Made by a program: the position numbers and the translations under genes. From NCBI GenBank assembly GCA_002104935.1, contig MCGT01000033.1, forward strand, positions 248,001 through 312,000: 64,000 nucleotides of DNA, given 5' to 3'. The notes below the pieces were generated by a model that saw nothing but the letters and a program-made list of their open reading frames with translations, was not told the DNA's origin and ran no database searches. This DNA is from Hesseltinella vesiculosa. Its lineage: Eukaryota; Mucoromycota; Mucoromycetes; Mucorales; Cunninghamellaceae. Of the stretch, positions 50,893 to 62,465 are shown piece after piece (the stretch's first letter is position 1; every line of letters starts with the position of its first letter).

Positions 50893-51881
50893 CGAAAAAG
50901 AAACGGCCAGACTTCGAATTTACCCACATAATCCACGCCTCCTTACTCTTATTATATGTATTAAACCGAGATGCACCCACGAATCTACTATATTGCGCCC
51001 CCCGTTAAGTTGATCTCCTTTCTTCAGCCAAGCTTGGGCTGCTCTGGCGCAGAAAACGGCCGCTAAAATCTGCCAGGAGGCTTTTCCGCTTTTTTTTGTC
51101 AGAAAATTTTCCACCTTTCTAATTTCCCTGCTTTCTGGTCACCCAGAATGGATATCTCCATTTTCACTTTTCTCACTGGTTAACCAGCTGACTCAAATGT
51201 ACAAGATTTGTTCTCCTGATTTTTTGTCCCAGCTTTGCTCTTTGAACCAAAAGCTGCCTGTCAGCAAAAGTTTCGGCGCCATCTTCTATTTTTTTCAACA
51301 AAAGAGATATCGATCATTATCAATTAGTACAAAAAAAAACGAGAGCAATTGTTCTTTTTACTTCGGTTTTGCAAAGGCAAAGAGCTCGTTCAGAAGCAGC
51401 GCCTTGGACATTGTCCACGGTATGAAAAGGGATGAGGACAGGCTGGGCGAGGTTAGATAAAATGACGCAGGTTAGATATAATCAGGCTGGTCGAGGTTAG
51501 ATAAAATGGAGAAGGTTAGATAAAATGGAGTAAGTTAGATATAAACAGCATCGAGGCTAGATAAAATAGAGTAGGTTAGATATAAACAGCGGTGAGGTTG
51601 GATAAAAATGGAGGCTAGAAGAAGAAGAACAACGGCGCTGTGAAGAGTGGTTCAACGAACACGTCAATGAGGTGACGTGACGCCAACTGTGTTCACTCAG
51701 GGAGTTCAACTGCCGAAGACAACAGCAACAGCAAACAGCAAATCGCTTGTTGTGCCTCTTTTTTTTTCGGCCCTGACTCCCAGGGATTTATTGACCTTAG
51801 CCTGTTTACTTTTCCCCTTTCAACTTTTTTTTCTTTCATCCTTTTCTTCTTTTTCTCTTTTTATCCCATTCACATCTCTCC
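50893..51881. other. Intergenic region with the left TATCTAACCT-type array
   Basis: MFS copy 1 3' flank, then a region with no recognised gene, then the short minus-oriented array at 51440-51610 (separate entry) and a T/C-rich stretch before the next start codon. Confidence 0.6.
51440..51610 (-). repeat. Left array of GGTTAGATA units (reverse of the right array)
   Basis: About eight GGTTAGATA-type motifs spaced 17-25 bases apart, for example GAGGTTAGATAAAATGACGC and AGGTTAGATATAA. Read on the opposite strand these are the TATCTAACCT units of the array at 59868-60930. This copy is shorter and more diverged. Confidence 0.85.
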
Positions 51882-53846: not shown

Positions 53847-55290
53847 TCATTCGTCATCAGACCATAGGCGCGGAGTGCAGGTCGCTGATAATGAATCCCG
53901 AGCAAACGAGTTCTTGCATGCCTTGTATGATGCACAGTCAGGATTGACGCAGCAACTTGTCCCTAAATTGGTCTTGCGGTTTCCATAGGTTTTCTTGGAG
54001 GGGTGGATGATTCGATGTGGGCAGATTGGACACACCATCGATGTCCTTGCTTCATTTGTAATGAGGGCGATAGAGTGTTGGCGGGTGAAACGTCGGTGCA
54101 TGTCCTATGGCATGGACTAATGTGCCTTGGGGGTGTTCACGTTTGGCTTCCACTACGATCTTCGTCTTGACGACCTTTGTCCGCCAAGCAATGAGGAGAC
54201 GCTGGCGTTCAAACTTGTCTTGGTGGTAAAATGCGCGGACTGCAGGGGCCAAACCACGGATGGTGTCGTATCGGTATTGGAAGGTGGAAAGATCGTAGGC
54301 TGTTGACAGGCTGTTCTTAGCAATCACCGACTCAGCTTGACTTGCAGCTTGGCCCTGGGGAGTCTAGTAAAAAAAAAGTCAGTTTTGTTCGCAGAACTCT
54401 CCCAGCTCTCTTCTAGCCATCCTACCTTGGCTTTGTCACGTTGTAGCTTCTGATTGAACTTCCATTGGCCAGTCTTCCAAACGAGATCCCGTGAAGTGAT
54501 GATGGTGGGTTTGTTGAGCTTCACCGATCTTCCTTCTTTGATAGCTTCCAGGTCTGCTGCTGAATGGGTCACGGTTGTGGCCAGGGTGACGATCCCGTAG
54601 TCAGTTCCTGGCACCGAAAGGTCACTGCAGTTGATTTGCAAGGCGACGTGATTTGGGTCTTCCTCCACGCGGGTTGTCTTTTTCAGGATAGTTGCTGGCA
54701 CCGACGGCTCATTGCTGTTGGCTTTCTTCTTCTTGCCCTTTTTGCCTTTTATTTCCTCGGCCTTGAAAATAAAGGAGATGAGGTAAATTTCTTCCGCTTC
54801 GTCCCATCCTTTTCAAGAATTACCTTTTGGAGGTCGTACCGAATGGACCGCAGCCTGGCAAGTTCGTCTTGAACAACAGGTACATCCCTCGTAGTTTTCT
54901 GGGCACCATTCTTCAGGAATCGCTCCATTTTCACATCGGCATTTTTTTTTGGAAGGCTCGTCTGAATAAAAAAAATTAGATGAGTAACACATGGCTTCCA
55001 TGTCTTTTTTATATCCTATTTACCTTCACGGCCGGTTGGTGAGGTGTTGGATATATCTTTGGGACCAGCAGGCTTGCCATGGACTTGACTGGTGAAGGAG
55101 GCATATGTTCAGAGGGATAAGCATAGTCTGTGTCCTTCATGGCGCGTCGATGCTTCATGAGTGCATTGCAGGCATCACGCTTGGTCTTGGCCATGCGATT
55201 TCTTTCTTTTTCGGCTTCGGATATATCAGTTTTCAGGGTATCCAAGGAAGTGCGAGCAATGCAAAGAGAGAAAGGAAACAAAGAAAAAAG
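53847..55290 (-). pseudogene. Truncated, frameshifted Fanzor (TnpB-like) relic
   Basis: Reads as the C-terminal third of the 55621-59554 gene. Exons are about 55290-55024, 54961-54824, 54761-54426 and 54363-53847, with the same intron positions. It keeps the coiled KERNRMAKTKRDACNAL region, VEEDPNH, the RuvC-I-like GTDYGIVTLATTVTH, KTGQWKFNQ and the zinc-finger end TNEARTSMVCPIC...CCVNPDC...FARDSLS. Relative to its sibling, about 56 bases are lost at about 54098, which shifts the frame between AIGH and the FTRQHS segment. Everything N-terminal of the coiled region is missing. It is therefore a dead copy, inverted relative to the larger gene. Identity to the sibling is moderate, so the two are not a recent duplication. 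Confidence 0.85.
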
Positions 55291-55620
55291 AGAAAGAAAA
55301 AGGAGGCTCGCCACTTTTTTTGGTGTTGCACAAAACCTGAGTCTTCCAATCAAAAAGCTCTTTCCTGATCACAGATCCCTCCATCCATTTTTGAGTAAAA
55401 ATGCAGTTTGGGGAGTGAAGGCTACCAAGTGAGGATAGAATGACAGGGGAGATATAGCCAATAAACCTCGCACAAGCTTCCCAACGCATAATATTTCCAT
55501 CACTTTGTTCCGGTCAAAGGGTCACGCGCCCGCTCTTCAAACCCTTCTTCCTTGCCAATTCAAACTCATCTCTTCGTCCTTTTTCTCTTCGTCTTTTTTT
55601 TTCACCTTGCTTTCGTCCTG
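55291..55620. other. Spacer between the inverted Fanzor copies
   Basis: The minus strand has a coding-like stretch (start near 55489, MRWEACARFIGYISPV) that runs into the relic's truncated 5' end through a T/C-rich tract. It could be a fragment of another gene joined by the insertion. The plus strand ends in a T/C-rich leader of the Fanzor gene. Confidence 0.45.
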
Positions 55621-58600
55621 ATGGGTAAACGTCGTTCTCAACAGCTGTCTGAACGACCATCAACAAAACCTTTGCTAAGCCTTAACGATGAAACGGAGGC
55701 CAAGGAGGTACTCATTCTTGAAATGCAGCGGTACATCAAGGCGAAGCTGTTGAATGCGAAGGATCATGGCAAGACCAAGACCGAGCTGGACAATGTTCTA
55801 CGGCTACCGAAAGGCCTACTGAAGAATATTGATGATGCCTGCCATTGGAAGCCCGGTTCCTTTGCCGCAAAGTACCACAAGAAGATCGCGTTCATGCAAG
55901 TCTGGAAAAGCACGCTGAAGGAATCCTTTGCATCTTTGTCCTCTGAAGCCATGGCTACCGCATCAACACTGCAAGCGTCCTCCTCCTCTGCTGCGTCGCC
56001 CTTGTCTACCGATCCATCTTCTTCCACAGCTCCACCTGCCACCACGATAAAAGAAGAGATCCGTGGAACTCACAAGGGCCTGACATCGATCTTGGCAAGC
56101 GATATCAAAGACACTGGCACAGGTCAATCACTGAAAAATGAGCTTTTTGGCGTATTCAAGACAGCGATGAGTGAAGCAACCAATTACTGCCAAGAAATGA
56201 CATTTTTAATGCAAGCGACGATGTTAAAATTTGCAACAACACCGGACCCTGATTGGTACAATGGTATGATGGAAATCAGGCCACTACATAAAAAAAACCA
56301 GCTGATGGACTCACTTCCTTTTTTGTTGTTGGACAGTCTGCATCTGATCTTGTCCCTGTCGCTGCCTTTCGCCACCCTGACGAACTGGGCCGAGAAATGA
56401 CATTTTCCGCGCTTCCTCCTCCTGCCCGTGCGTTGACAGACGACCTATTCTCTATTGGCCACATCCAATACCTCTTCTCGTCAACCTTCAGCAAGACCCG
56501 GGCATCAACAAAAGCCAACCGTCCAGTGTGGTCCTACCTGGATGTGGATGTCACAACTCGTCGCCCTGACCTTGGTATCATGACCAGTGAGCTGCGATCC
56601 ATCTACAACAACAAGATGGAAACCAGCATTCAAAACCTTCTTTCCGGGAAAACGTTCAGGACGATGCTTCGATATCTGCTGCGCCTGCTCCTGCGAGTTT
56701 TTATCACGTTCCCTGTTCCGAATATGTCTAATTTATATATTGCGGCTACTTTAGAGACTCATCGTTTGCGGCTTGCCCCCCAACGAGAACAACGCCACCA
56801 CGATGCCAAAGCAAAGGCAGCTGCCACCAAGGCTGAGAATATCAAGGTAATGCTACCCTTCATCTGGCTGTCCAACAAGTAACCAATGTTTTCCTTTTTT
56901 TAAACAGGCAGTCGAAGTCAACCAAGCGCGTCAATTGAAAAAACAATGGTCCCATGTGCGCATAGCATTGAGGCGCCAGGAATGGCAGTTGGCGAAGGAC
57001 AAGACCAAGGCATCATTCACCGGCATGAAGCAGCATGGATATGATGCACGGATCTCACACTTGAAATCCGTTATGGTGAGATGACATGCTGGCAATGACT
57101 GAATGTTGGTCTCATGTTTTATTTTATAAATAGGAATCATTGGATTCCCAAAGAAAAGCTGCCCGCAAAGTTGCTGAGGAAGAGCGGCAAAAGGTAATGG
57201 ATCTCGGCGGGTAAGGAATCACAAAATTGGTGTCTGACTTCTTTTTCCTCGGCCATTCTTGATACAGCCAAAGCCCTTGTCTGCAACTGAAGCAGCCCCA
57301 TTGGACCCCAATGCTGATGAAGATGTATGATTGGCTAAGAGCATGCAAAGGTTGCCAAGGTTATTTCACTGATGCTCACCCTTTTTTTAGGACCAAGACA
57401 AAGAGGACTTGGATGCCATGGACGATTTGGATAGCGCGGGGTATGATCTCGACAACTTGCCCTCCAGTGGAAATGCTCAAGATGTATCCGCACGCCGCCT
57501 TGGAACCATACAGGGAATTTTGTCGCGATTGCTCTGGGATGAGAGCCTTCCACCATTGTTGGATGCTACGATGGTGCGCAAGCAGTCGAAGAACCTCGAT
57601 CCATCTGACAACGAGCTCAGCACGATGAAGCGCATCTACCAGCACCTGAAGCCTTATATGGTGTACGATGGGCCGAAGCATCCCAAGCGCCTCCAATACC
57701 GCAAAATCAACCTCATCATGCTCGGAAACCAAGCCCTTCGTCTTTGTGGGTACCACAAATTTTGCCAGCAGTACTGCCCAGTCGTGTCAGCCGGGTCGCT
57801 GTACACCCTTTCCATGAACGCCCCAGCCCTGTACGAGTTGCTCCATAAGAAGGTTGACATGCGATCAATAGGCGTGACAAGCACGCCAACTGCAAGACAG
57901 AACAAGCACGGCGTCTTCTCTGCAATTTTCGACATGGACGAAGTCACCAAGGCCTGCACGAAGAATGGCACTGAATTCATTTTCCGAATGGACGTGACGC
58001 CCGCCTTTGATACGCTGCTCTTTGGTAAAACGGTCAAACCACGTCAGCAGTCGATGTATGAAAAGCGACTCAAGGCCACCTCTTCCGATTTCGACACGAC
58101 ATCCATGCCTACCAACAGCATCCATGATCATGACCTAGACACCATTGGCAAAGCCATCTCACTTGCTGAAAAAGAACGCGACCGCCTCACCAAGGCAAAG
58201 CGAGACACTACGAAGCAGCTGGACAGCACTCGCCGTGCCATGAAGAAGTCAACAATCGTCAACCACCCATCAACTACCAATACAAGCAAAGGCAAAGGTA
58301 ACTGAATTAGAGGGAATGAATCAGGGGAAGGGGCCACATCATTTATTTATTTTGGTAGGCAAGGCAGAAACAGCCAAGTTTACAATGATTAAAGAAGAGC
58401 GACAGTTGAAAGTGGCAGTCCAGAAGGCTACAAGTGACGTGCATGCTGCTCAAGACACCCTTGCCGATCTACGACAGACACGATACCAACTACAAAAGGT
58501 AAGCTCACATGAAGTGGGATAGGAATGCGGAGGCACAGGCGGCTGGAGGTACTTACATTCCGCTTTTTTCCTTCCTGAAGGTAGCTGACACCAAGAAGTC

Positions 58601-59554
58601 CAAGAAAACAAAGCCCTTGCCACCTATTCCTCCAACCAAAATAAGCAAGACCACTCGTGTTGAGGAGGATCCTCGTCATACGTTGCTTGACCTTAATCTC
58701 AAGGAATGTCATATATCTGGCACGGACTATGGCATCGTGACATTGGCAACAACGGTGACTCACAATTTCGAGGAGCTGGAAAAACTGAAAGCTGGTCAGT
58801 TCTTCAAATTACCAAAGGCAAAAAAGCTGGTTGCAAAGGATATTGCGTGGAAGACAGGACAGATCCAGCTGCAGCAGCGATTGCAACGTACCAAAGTAAA
58901 AGTAAGAGGCGCATAATCCCTGATTTCAATGAACAACGCTGACTCGTTTTTTTTTTTTGTTTGCAGACCAGTGAAGGTCGAGAAGTATGTCAAGCCGAAG
59001 GCATTCTCGCAGAGAATTCCCTTGCCTCAGCCAGGTCTGTCCAGCAGCTGAACGTTCGCTTTGAAAAAATACGATCCAATGCACCAAAAGTCCGTGCCTT
59101 TTACCATAACCCGCAACTCGAGCGTCGACGCCGTCACTTACAATGGCGACAGTGGCTGGTGAAGACAAGGATCCCTGTCGCTGCCAAGCGAAAGCATGAC
59201 CAAACCCTGATCCAAGCCATTGGTCACGCAGGCACTGGCGTTGGCACAAGAGTGGGTGGCCATTTTCGACTTGGTGGTAAATGGCACAGACGCATATCTC
59301 GACAACATACCATCGTCCTTGTCACCAATGAAGCCCGTACATCGATGACATGCCCTTTCTGCCGCCACCGCATCATTCACCCCCGCAAAGCTGTCAATGG
59401 CAAGTCCAAATTGAACCTGGGTACCTCTTGCTGTGCCAATCCATGCTGTGAATCGTATCAGCAGCAAAAAAACTGCTTCAGTCGAGACGCCCTTTCCTGT
59501 ACTTGCATTGCTTTGCGATGCTATGGACAATTGACAAATTGTGAAATCTTATGA
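55621..59554 (+). CDS. Fanzor (eukaryotic TnpB-like RNA-guided nuclease) gene
   Basis: Nine exons modelled: 55621-56263, 56395-56846, 56908-57075, 57134-57193, 57270-57326, 57391-58297, 58359-58498, 58581-58901 and 58967-59554, about 1111 residues. The C-terminal half carries the published TnpB/Fanzor signature D-x(125-275)-[TS][TS]-xx-C4 finger-x(5-50)-RD. The Asp is in ISGTDYGIVTLATT (about residue 858), TS in NEARTSMTCPFC (about 1041), cysteines in TSCCANPCC, and RD in CFSRDALS (about 1089). The N-terminal part is basic with coiled segments (QLKKQWSHVRIALRRQEWQL). Fanzor proteins are RuvC nucleases guided by a non-coding RNA from the element's 3' side. The junction after exon 1 is uncertain: the best-looking acceptor (56336) is out of phase. 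The rest is in frame. Confidence 0.8.
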
Positions 59555-59867
59555 ACGACTTTGAAACCTTCTGACCGACTTTGTACAATGCACCATGCTT
59601 TGTGAGTGTGAGGCGGCGGCTCCGTCATCAAGACGTGAAAACTTGGTAATGATATCACAAAAATATAACACAGCATCATCTCATTTGTATTTTTCCTGCT
59701 GTGCATCCTTTGTCCCTACCTTTTCTGGAAAATCATTCGTAAGTCCATTTGGTTTCCCTGATTCGCCCCTTCACGCTTAACTCACCCCATTTTATTCCAT
59801 ATTTGTTAGTTTATTTTGTGACATCTTTCCTCTGAAATTTGCGACTTTTTTAATTTCAATAAAGTGT
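59555..59867 (+). other. 3' flank of the Fanzor gene, candidate guide-RNA region
   Basis: About 310 bases between the Fanzor stop and the tandem array. In known TnpB and Fanzor loci the guide RNA overlaps the 3' end of the nuclease gene and runs toward the element end. No homologous RNA fold can be assigned from sequence alone, so this is inference. A canonical AATAAA lies at about 59859-59864. Confidence 0.3.
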
Positions 59868-60930
59868 ATCTAACCTGTGTCTTTTTATCTAACCTTGCCC
59901 CTTTTATATCTAACCTGTGTTCATTTTTATCTAACCTCGCCCCTTTTATATCTAACCTGTGTTCATTTTTATCTAACCTCGCCGCTTTTATATCTAACCT
60001 GTGTCTTTTTATCTAACCTTGCCGCTTTTATATCTAACCTGTGTTCATTTTTATCTAACCTCGCCGCTTTTATATCTAACCTGTGTCTTTTTATCTAACC
60101 TTGCCCCTTTTATATCTAACCTGTGTTCATTTTTATCTAACCTCGCCGCTTTTATATCTAACCTGTGTTCATTTTTATCTAACCTCGCCGCTTTTATATC
60201 TAACCTGTGTTCATTTTTATCTAACCTCGCCGCTTTTATATCTAACCTGTGTCTTTTTATCTAACCTGCCCTTTTATATCTAACCTGTGTCTTTTTATCT
60301 AACCTTGCCCTTTTATATCTAACTGTGTTCATTTTTATCTAACCTCGCCGCTTTTATATCTAACCTGTGTCTTTTTATCTAACCTCGCCCCTTTTATATC
60401 TAACCTGTGTTCATTTTTATCTAACCTTGCCGCTTTTATATCTAACCTGTGTCTTTTTATCTAACCTTGCCCCTTTTATATCTAACCTGTGTTCATTTTT
60501 ATCTAACCTCGCCGCTTTTATATCTAACCTGTGTCTTTTTATCTAACCTTGCCGCTTTTATATCTAACCTGTGTTCATTTTTATCTAACCTCGCCGCTTT
60601 TATATCTAACCTGTGTCTTTTTATCTAACCTTGCCCCTTTTATATCTAACCTGTGTTCATTTTTATCTAACCTCGCCGCTTTTATATCTAACCTGTGTCT
60701 TTTTATCTAACCTCGCCGCTTTTATATCTAACCTGTGTCTTTTTACTAACCTTGCCCCTTTTATATCTAACCTGTGTTCATTTTTATCTAACCTCGCCGC
60801 TTTTATATCTAACCTGTGTCTTTTTATCTAACCTCGCCCCTTTTATATCTAACCTGTGTTCATTTTTATCTAACCTCGCCGCTTTTATATCTAACCTGTG
60901 TTCATTTTTTATCTAACCTTGCCGCTTTTA
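59868..60930 (+). repeat. Right array, 40/42-bp dimeric tandem repeat
   Basis: About 25 units of a dimer made of two related halves of about 20 bases, each containing TATCTAACCT. Typical halves are TATCTAACCTGTGTTCATTT and ATCTAACCTCGCCGCTTTTA; the shorter variant has GTGTCTTTTT. Few units carry single-base losses (for example near 60266 and 60323), so the array is fairly homogeneous. Open frames with a YLTC repeat across it are by-products. Confidence 0.97.
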
Positions 60931-61055
60931 CAGTATTTTTAGTTGGCGCGCAGGATAGAATTTTTAGCAGGCAAAAGGATTCCAATTCACAGGCAAAATA
61001 AAATTGACTGCACGCAAACCAGGTCTGATTTGCACGCAAAGCATTTCCAGTGCAC

Positions 61056-61905
61056 GTGAATCTGTTTTCTACCCACCGCAAACCAGACCTCCGACTCCTG
61101 CAAAACTGATCTCCACCTCACGCAAACCAGATCTCCAGTGCACGCAAAAAAAAAAGTTAAAAATAAAAAAATAAGCACCGTCATTTATTTTTCTTGAAAA
61201 AAAGAAAGAAGTGCAGGGACTAGAGCTTCTCCTCCTTGCTCAAACAACGATCAAAAGAGGTGAGGGAGTGCCGGATCCATCCTTGGCAATCGCTTGGTGT
61301 GACGGAGAGAGCAGCCTCGCGGATTATTGGGGCCAAAGAGTCTTGATTGTCCAAGGGGGACCGGCGCACACCTGCCTTGATTTTGGCCCAACATTCCTCA
61401 ATCGGGTTGCGTCCTGCAGTTTTCTTGTACAAATTGCATTGTCGTGTATTCTCTGATTTGTAAATGTCCAGTGCTTTTATAAGTGTCACACTGCGCCTGA
61501 ATCTCCCGCCCATTCTTTTTTTCTTGTCGCACTTACGTTCAAGATGTCATCAACGTGAGTTGCCCGCTGCCCATCCTTTTTTTCTTGTCACACTAACGTT
61601 CAAGATGTCACCCAGGTGAGTTGCCCGCCGCCCACCCTTTTTTTTGCGACAAGAAAAAAAGGATGGGTGGGAGACTCGGGCGCAGCGTGACACTTATAAA
61701 AGCACTGGACATTTGAGCAAGGAGGAGAAGCTCTAGTCCCTGCACCTCTTTTTTTTTTTCAGGAAAAATAAATGAAGGTGCTTTTTTTTAAAAAAAAAAA
61801 AAATAATCTATTTTTTGCGTGCACTGGAGATCTGGTTTGCGTGAGGTGGAGATTAGGTTTGCAGGAGTCAGAGGTCTGGTTTGCGTGGGTAGAAAACAGA
61901 TTCAC
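61056..61905. mobile_element. Foldback element derived from a Tc1/mariner-IS630 transposon
   Basis: Arms 61056-61244 and 61712-61905 are long inverted repeats. Shared blocks are GTGAATCTGTTTTCTACCCA, CGCAAACCAGA, CTCCACCTCACGCAAACC and GCAGGGACTAGAGCTTCTCC. A second inner pair (61462-61497 and about 61679-61713, blocks GTCCAGTGCTTTTATAAG and TGCGCC) makes the unit almost palindromic. Subterminal CGCAAACCAG motifs recur within each arm. The interior carries a transposase C-terminal relic. Confidence 0.85.
61220..61420 (-). pseudogene. C-terminal relic of a DDE (IS630/Tc1-mariner type) transposase
   Basis: The minus-strand frame reads NPIEECWAKIKAGVRR, then SPLDNQDSLAPIIREA, SDCQGWIRHSL and DRCLSKEEKL, then stop. 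NPIE with the catalytic acidic residue followed by W.K.K is the end of the DDE domain in this superfamily. The first two catalytic aspartates and the DNA-binding N-terminus are missing, so it cannot be active. The frame continues upstream without recognisable transposase sequence. Confidence 0.85.
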
Positions 61906-62465
61906 ATTGATCTTCTATTTGCCGTTGCAAAGAATGAGAAGGCAGCGAGCTTCACCAGTCACTTCCTGCGACTCAGCCCACCTACATGCACAAAAATACG
62001 GACTACTGTGACTAACTGATACCTAGCGATCGCACGCTAACAGTGACGACCTCCTGCACATCTTTCCTAACTAGGAAAAAAAAGTCTCGCTTAAAATAAA
62101 TTCTGCACCCTTCAACCTTTTTTTTTATGGGACGGAGCAAAGGCCGAAGTGGTTCCACGATAAAGGCATTAAAAATAACGGAAACCTAGCCACAATGCCA
62201 AGATGCATGCATGAAAATTTGGTCTGGCACGTGCCACGTGCTCTAACCCCACGCGTAGCTCCTTTTTTTCTGTTTTTACAATGTCTTGCACAGGGTGCTT
62301 CTTGATCACGGAAGAATAATGGCCGGTGTGATTGCTCAGGAGATTGCACCAAGATCGACGTGCCAAGGCGCGGTTTCGAAATAAGCCCTTTTTTTTTTTT
62401 TGCATAAAAGAGCGCAAGCCCGTAGTGAAAAAATGCATCCCCCGTTCTTTTTTAGGCTTTTGACA

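Follow-up and report, generated by a model that had tools for sequence, protein, structure and literature searches.

Bacterial TnpB proteins of IS605 and IS607 elements have a RuvC/zinc-finger core and a right-end guide RNA. The TnpB-like Fanzor proteins of eukaryotes are the closest described counterparts of the gene considered here, which lies on the forward strand at 55621-59554 of a 64,000-nt window of the fungus Hesseltinella vesiculosa (C27:248001-312000 of a genome of 27.05 Mb in 85 contigs; coordinates given without a contig are those of the window, and C, L and P numbers are our handles for contigs, loci and proteins). In the sections of the Fanzor literature on which we draw (PMC10432273, PMC10711439, PMC3627910, PMC11423790), SpuFz1 of Spizellomyces punctatus, a Fanzor1 carried by the element Spu-1, has catalytic residues including E541 and D606, a 75-nt RNA scaffold followed by a 14-15-nt guide, and a target motif (TAM) CATA, with a conserved CA before the left repeat; the omegaRNAs of SpuFz1 and PpFz1 both consist of one stem-loop SL1 and one SL2 ahead of the guide. 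Fanzor1 families are reported from Rhizopus, Phycomyces and Mucor, and Fanzor1 genes occur in Tc1/mariner elements such as PUl-4 (Bao and Jurka, 2013, as far as the sections used here describe them). We put at roughly 0.85 the probability that the product of the Hesseltinella gene, about 1,050-1,130 aa long, is a divergent Fanzor1-like RNA-guided DNA endonuclease and that the gene rides on a non-autonomous, TA-flanked element with a predicted scaffold, a predicted TAM and predicted insertion in trans. Its identity as a Fanzor, proposed in an earlier note made from the sequence, is supported by profile evidence, by two of three catalytic residues that align with SpuFz1, and by its mobile-element setting. 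At about 1.6 times the usual Fanzor size, the family suggests that early-diverging fungi hold a greater diversity of Fanzors than domain libraries detect, and a single genome is enough to read off its probable RNA partner, target motif and transposon ends.

The catalytic signature lies in the last two of nine exons. Exon 8 (58581-58901) carries the RuvC-I motif GTDYG, with its aspartate codon at 58725-58727, and exon 9 (58967-59554) contains NEARTSMTCPFC...CCANPC...FSRD and the stop, with the glutamate at 59330-59332, the four-cysteine (C4) zinc finger at 59351-59449 and the second aspartate at 59486-59488 (motif residues in both exons were counted by hand). From the GTDYG aspartate to TS there are 182 residues, followed by the C4 (CPFC...CANPC) and, 11 residues onward, RD; this order and spacing, which the earlier note had read correctly, fit the motif D-X(125,275)-[TS]-[TS]-X-X-[C4]-X(5,50)-RD given for Fanzor and TnpB in the cited sections. 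The glutamate stands six residues ahead of CxxC (E-ARTSMT-CPFC), as in the rearranged ExxxxxxCxxC pattern that the same sources describe for Fanzors. The three acidic residues (D, E, D) and the four zinc cysteines do not vary among the window protein and five homologues that are 44-84% identical to it, and P0008, a relative from Mortierella alpina, retains them all, with HD in place of RD; the GTDYG motif of exon 8 is likewise kept in these six aligned sequences and in P0008. Because these residues are invariant across six sequences and a family profile ranks SpuFz1 first in PDB, the motif match, judged by conservation, is not a chance one. The family resembles bacterial TnpB in its RuvC/zinc-finger core and presumed right-end guide RNA, and differs from it in the rearranged glutamate, the eukaryotic introns and the large N-terminal region. 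A descendant of Fanzor without nuclease function, serving its transposon otherwise, for example in DNA binding or regulation, would be in keeping with the strong divergence of the sequence ahead of the RuvC part, with DYG instead of DPG, and with the lack of any Pfam match over cut-off; given the invariant catalytic and zinc-binding residues, their retention in P0008, and a covarying RNA block kept in the five subfamilies examined (described below), such a loss appears very improbable.

The profile search that had been proposed as a check on the Fanzor identity came out on both sides. Six C-terminal sequences (the window copy, four other H. vesiculosa copies and P0001 from Halteromyces radiatus) were combined into a profile that, searched against 177,635 PDB sequences, places SpuFz1 at the top with E = 6.8e-4; with P0008, itself found at E 3e-9, added to the profile, SpuFz1 is reached at E = 9e-7, with E, TS, C4, NP and RD colinear. 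In this alignment, residues 935 (the E of DEYKTS) and 1000 (the D of NRD) of the SpuFz1 chain, counted from the printed alignment, stand opposite the family's glutamate and aspartate, and an offset of 394 for the MBP fusion chain maps them to E541 and D606; these two catalytic residues therefore align column by column. The second half of the zinc finger also shares its CX4C form, CTNPNC in SpuFz1 and, for example, CANPNC in subfamily C. With hhalign, comparison to four canonical Fanzors of the same genome gave P values of 8.3e-4 and 1.6e-4, with E-x-x-TS and CxxC aligned. Several results weigh on the other side. The hhalign probabilities are low (24% and 50%), and no Pfam or NCBIfam model exceeds its cut-off for the window protein or the family members searched; PF07282 scores below cut-off, at best E 0.0038 in one of six members and 0.016 for P0004, with the four cysteines present and conserved. 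Among the 11 matches listed for the extended profile, SpuFz1 alone is significant: oligoribonucleases hold ranks 2 (E 0.13) and 4 (0.18), and PpFz1 (0.16) and two Cas12f proteins (0.19) hold ranks 3, 5 and 6. The alignment does not reach the RuvC-I aspartate (D383 in SpuFz1), whose correspondence is one of motif and order only. AlphaFold produced poor models, with confidence scores (pLDDT) of 42 from 4 sequences and 55 from 11, and Foldseek with such a model returned no match at E <= 0.001.

In our judgement the SpuFz1 profile match is not outweighed by the misses in Pfam and NCBIfam or by the uninformative fold result. An unrelated zinc-finger transposon protein with a TnpB-like motif by chance would be compatible with the uninformative fold prediction and with the single-sequence PDB searches, in which neither the window protein (phmmer) nor P0008 had a relevant match, and yet it would leave unexplained a profile match at 9e-7 with colinear E, TS, C4, NP and RD; we consider it extremely improbable. 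The assignment to Fanzor1 rather than Fanzor2 is pointed to only by the best match, SpuFz1, being a Fanzor1.

Among the other described systems, PpFz1 of Parasitella parasitica is a Fanzor1 from the Mucorales, the order in which we also place Hesseltinella. PpFz1 gives the weak, non-significant profile match mentioned above at the zinc finger, and it differs in having no detectable full-length similarity; PpFz1 itself contains a FRI insertion of about 100 aa. The Fanzor1 elements of the Tc1/mariner type are, in the parts of Bao and Jurka (2013) used here, likewise Fanzor-only and TA-flanked with mariner-like ends, and the Hesseltinella family differs from them in falling below the Pfam zinc-ribbon cut-off. 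The canonical Fanzors of the same genome share the signature order D, E-x6-CxxC, RD; the five that were read (L001, L002, L003, L007, L008) differ in having WG(V/I)DPG, a CxxC...CxxC finger with a CSKCG-type first half, and (W)QRDxNxxRN(I). A protein search with a canonical Fanzor query, whose length limited the candidates, returned only two Hesseltinella proteins, of 248 and 201 aa. At L007 (C5:208661), the canonical Fanzor stands beside an opposite-strand open reading frame (ORF) of 256 aa that by eye resembles a DDE_3-type transposase.

The family is large. A tblastn search with the C-terminal 279 aa yields at least 95 matches in the genome, none of which coincides with its 46 PF07282 matches when the lists are compared by reading; PF01385, the OrfB_IS605 N-terminal domain, has no match in the genome. 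By identity to the window protein, we distinguish subfamilies A (the window copy, with sisters at 84%), B (about 45%), C (63%), D (51%) and E (about 43-45%). In their DNA, near copies belonging to A, B or C agree at about 98-99.9% of positions up to an abrupt end; for A, this figure leaves out the window copy and other relatives at the 80% level. Outside Hesseltinella, homologues occur in Halteromyces radiatus, Mycoemilia scoparia (partial) and Mortierella alpina. In the open-access literature, we found no paper joining Fanzor with Mucoromycota or with Hesseltinella and, among the titles listed, none on this family; the papers found for Hesseltinella vesiculosa and transposable elements concern DNA methylation in other organisms. 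Head to head with the window gene, the minus strand holds a second copy (53847-55250) that is degenerate and truncated at its 5' side: at 53871-54677 it is covered by tblastn fragments that are 48-60% identical and contain in-frame stops, and the extent to about 55250 is read from an ORF resembling P0002, a protein of the same species. A subtelomeric location of subfamily B was considered and set aside, as four contig ends (last 150 bases each) contain no telomere-like repeat; several B copies probably stand at contig ends because assemblies break at repeats.

The gene model begins at an ATG at 55621 and stops at 59552-59554, with eight introns of 58-82 nt, each GT..AG. Exons 2-4 (56337-56846, 56908-57075 and 57134-57193), 5-7 (57268-57324, 57391-58297 and 58359-58498), 8 and 9 share one continuous frame, so that the signature-bearing exons are joined by clean splice sites as the earlier note had stated. 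Its description of a long, basic N-terminal half also holds, with about 874 aa before GTDYG that include 135 K+R and 101 D+E. For the gene as a whole, the ATG, the stop and the support of P0002 along the length stand, at 35% identity for exon 1 (from the first Met of P0002), 39% for exons 2-5 and 46% for exons 6-9; what had been missed is that the obvious splice sites of intron 1 (56264-56336) put exon 1 (55621-56263), with the start codon and N-terminal region, out of frame with exon 2. A brute-force search finds six in-frame joins of exons 1 and 2, every one of which loses coding sequence or needs other sites. At the 3' end of intron 1, next to exon 2, about 13 nt are absent from the window copy and present in L043 and L044, the two sister copies with sequence reaching the acceptor. 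Because this junction is out of frame relative to the sister copies, the window copy is probably broken and has probably lost the capacity to produce the complete protein. The suggestion that this copy might be an active nuclease thus finds no support, given the missing ~13 nt and an eroded left end (see below). Exon 1 is open in five of six sister copies, and a near-identical A copy on C2 (C2:136001-138600, L039) has a one-base frameshift there; recently spread A copies are thus not all intact. The ratios of nonsynonymous to synonymous change (dN/dS) between the window and its sister copy, which being pairwise cover both lineages, are 0.30 for exon 1 (38 synonymous differences), 0.11 for the last 84 codons of exon 8 (27) and 0.16 for exon 9 (52.5), from which we infer purifying selection on the protein, with the damage in the window copy as a later event.

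Downstream of the gene, 29 nt past the stop, lies a two-hairpin RNA block on the plus strand (59583-59651; covariance model score 70.3 bits) that is our best candidate for an omegaRNA scaffold. In 13 copies from all five subfamilies examined, an 11-bp and a 4-bp hairpin are possible. On the alignment, 83.9% of cells are paired (shuffles: 72.0), both sides are changed in 33 cells (shuffles: 13.9; slid structures: 0-4), and the covariation score is 0.444 (shuffles: 0.224); none of 500 shuffles reaches any of the three observed values. Between the window and its sister copy, the block is identical at 55/59 positions and the next stretch of untranslated region (UTR) at 111/157, and the four differences in the block all keep pairing. 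The covariance model gives strong matches (55-73 bits) in 10 of 19 sources, spanning all five subfamilies and including copies outside its training set (the most distinct being L015 and L061), and none in L029, which is a truncated copy, in the minus-strand copy of the window, or in eight loci of other Fanzor types, namely the four canonical ones searched (L001-L003, L007) and L070-L073. Two weak matches in the window (13.4 and 10.6 bits) look like chance, and Rfam has no match on 55000-60200 up to E 5.

Not all measures favor the structure. The two-hairpin form was named after reading the same sequences that were used in its test, and RNAalifold alone predicts seven pairs, in the first hairpin only. 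Pairs changed on both sides number 10 compared with 7.3 in shuffles, a value reached by 22/500, while the number of further pair types is reached by 353/500; pairs 10-35, 11-34, 12-33 and 48-58 fail in 5-7 of the 13 sequences. In 10 representatives, moreover, 110-222 nt separate the block from the element end downstream of it, whereas in SpuFz1, as the cited sections describe it, the scaffold is followed by the guide. This distance, together with the position 29 nt past the stop, is what might be expected of an mRNA element for 3'-UTR processing or translation control, an explanation that we nonetheless consider unlikely: the pair of hairpins, with about 4 bp in the second, is similar to the SL1 and SL2 of the SpuFz1 and PpFz1 omegaRNAs in the published accounts used here, and the strong covariance matches are confined to this family among the 19 sources.

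The element that carries the gene has recognizable ends. On the right, the window copy ends with the conserved terminus AATAAAGTGTA (59858-59868, plus strand; TA at 59867-59868), and the same kind of end, AAGTGTA with few variants, is followed by unrelated flanks in A, B, C, D and E. Distinct right flanks start with T in 26 of 27 cases, the remaining one, CACTCTTTCC, being the terminal sequence of a DDE_3 transposon whose insertion point is precisely that TA (three loci), and three of the 27 right ends have point changes in their last seven bases (L033, L079, L063/L078). On the left, alignment with six sister 5' ends (ATTTACAGTC) places a probable, eroded terminus of the window copy at approximately 55368-55375. 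For A and B, the subfamilies in which left flanks were seen, seven of eight distinct flanks have TT before TACAGTC and the eighth is again that DDE_3 transposon. These counts refer to the loci examined and to ends matching patterns built from ends already seen, with copies that have no such end excluded. Where both ends are seen (A and B), TA stands at each, with TACAGTC at the left and GTGTA-type sequence at the right, giving the layout TT-TA-[CAGTC...GTG]-TA-T. Abrupt shared ends, unrelated flanks and close copies at 98-99.9% identity show the element to be mobile. The A sister element on C2 measures about 4.46 kb end to end, roughly the gene and its UTRs, and therefore has no room for a transposase. 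In the parts of the literature used, Spu-1 is similarly multicopy, with inverted repeats, no transposase inside, conserved bases before its left end and an RNA after the stop, and differs in that a locus of about 2.1 kb with one ORF replaces the roughly 4.5 kb, nine exons and more than 1,000 aa found here; the DYG motif, too, belongs to the Hesseltinella family.

A resident 1.73-kb DDE_3 transposon (C34:703550-705279), with an open stretch of at least 337 aa that matches PF13358 at E 4e-27, has ends that resemble those of the Fanzor element: the A left end CAGTCTTTCCA and its own CACTCTTTCCA share 10 of the first 11 bases. The terminal inverted repeats (TIRs) of the Fanzor element match each other only imperfectly. 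Two left flanks of the DDE_3 transposon have no TT (L088, L089). A Helitron or an IS607/Crypton-like element, with no TIR and no target-site duplication, was considered as the flanks show no duplication beyond TA, and was set aside as less likely given the TA at both ends and the similar ends of the DDE_3 transposon; a duplication of the TA is not proven.

If these parts work together as in described systems, the RNA block would be the omegaRNA scaffold and the DNA flanking the right end of the element would supply the guide; protein and RNA would cut empty target sites beside a TTTA-type motif, such cutting would help the element to persist or copy itself, and a Tc1/mariner (DDE_3) transposase acting in trans, for instance the resident one, would carry out the insertion. 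The TTTA-type TAM is predicted from the TT-TA left flanks, by analogy with the CATA of SpuFz1, which we take to be the conserved CA plus TA; the predicted motif thus differs from the one reported for SpuFz1 in the sections cited. Scaffold, guide start and TAM are predictions open to direct test in what would be one more branch of the RNA-guided nucleases of eukaryotes, and the family offers a setting for asking why transposons carry such enzymes.

The two kinds of element also meet at insertion sites. The DDE_3 transposon sits exactly at a Fanzor terminal TA at C34:703550, C34:725382, C29:180998, C59:2705, C52:4751 and on C26 (L046), and also occurs in series with its own kind, with ends about 2 bp apart (C1:935501-937237; TA at C34:726155-726156). 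Because it occupies six such TAs and also stands in series with itself, element ends may be preferred targets of this transposon. The A 5' end is found at 12 further places at 78-88% identity. Under the same left end, other DPG-type Fanzor-like ORFs stand at three of the four loci L070-L073, namely L070-L072 (C12:1098507, C13:362269 and C35:50701), and two distinct genes of Fanzor-like type are apparently present at each of L070 and L071. At C18:382895-382998, an A-type 5' end at 100% identity has no family coding match listed nearby, and may mark a Fanzor-less element or a truncation.

The distance between the RNA block and the element end could be bridged by splicing. A donor-like GTAA follows the TGA[AC]AAC of the second hairpin by 3-9 nt in nine of 10 representatives (GTAAG in seven of the nine), the intervening 110-222 nt are T-rich, and AAG|TGTA closes the element; intron 8 of the C2 copy of subfamily A apparently has AAG as its acceptor. 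Copies of the B and E types contain no AG for 82-155 nt ahead of the terminal AAG. Such an AG-free tract stands out in B (P 0.0015 and 0.0025), only weakly in E (0.03-0.08), and does not stand out in A, C or D (0.14-0.58); in these last three types, splicing might instead run through an intron-like TTAG/GTAG segment. Assembly of the omegaRNA by the spliceosome, in which intron removal would bring the scaffold next to a flank-derived guide, seems to us quite improbable; if true, this would be an RNA-guided nuclease whose guide RNA matures by intron removal.

Beyond the right end of the window element, a 42-bp minisatellite of 26 copies (59867-60930) starts exactly at the terminal TA and, if the guide is indeed flank-derived, would supply the guide of the window copy; a relative in reverse orientation lies at 51439-51613. 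Directly after the minisatellite comes a degenerate Tc1/mariner-like element (about 60931-62030) that starts with TACAGTATTTTTAG and has inverted repeats of 70-78 nt and, on the minus strand, an NPIEECW stretch with no Pfam match. An end similar to that of this element is also found 3' of a Fanzor copy on contig C50.

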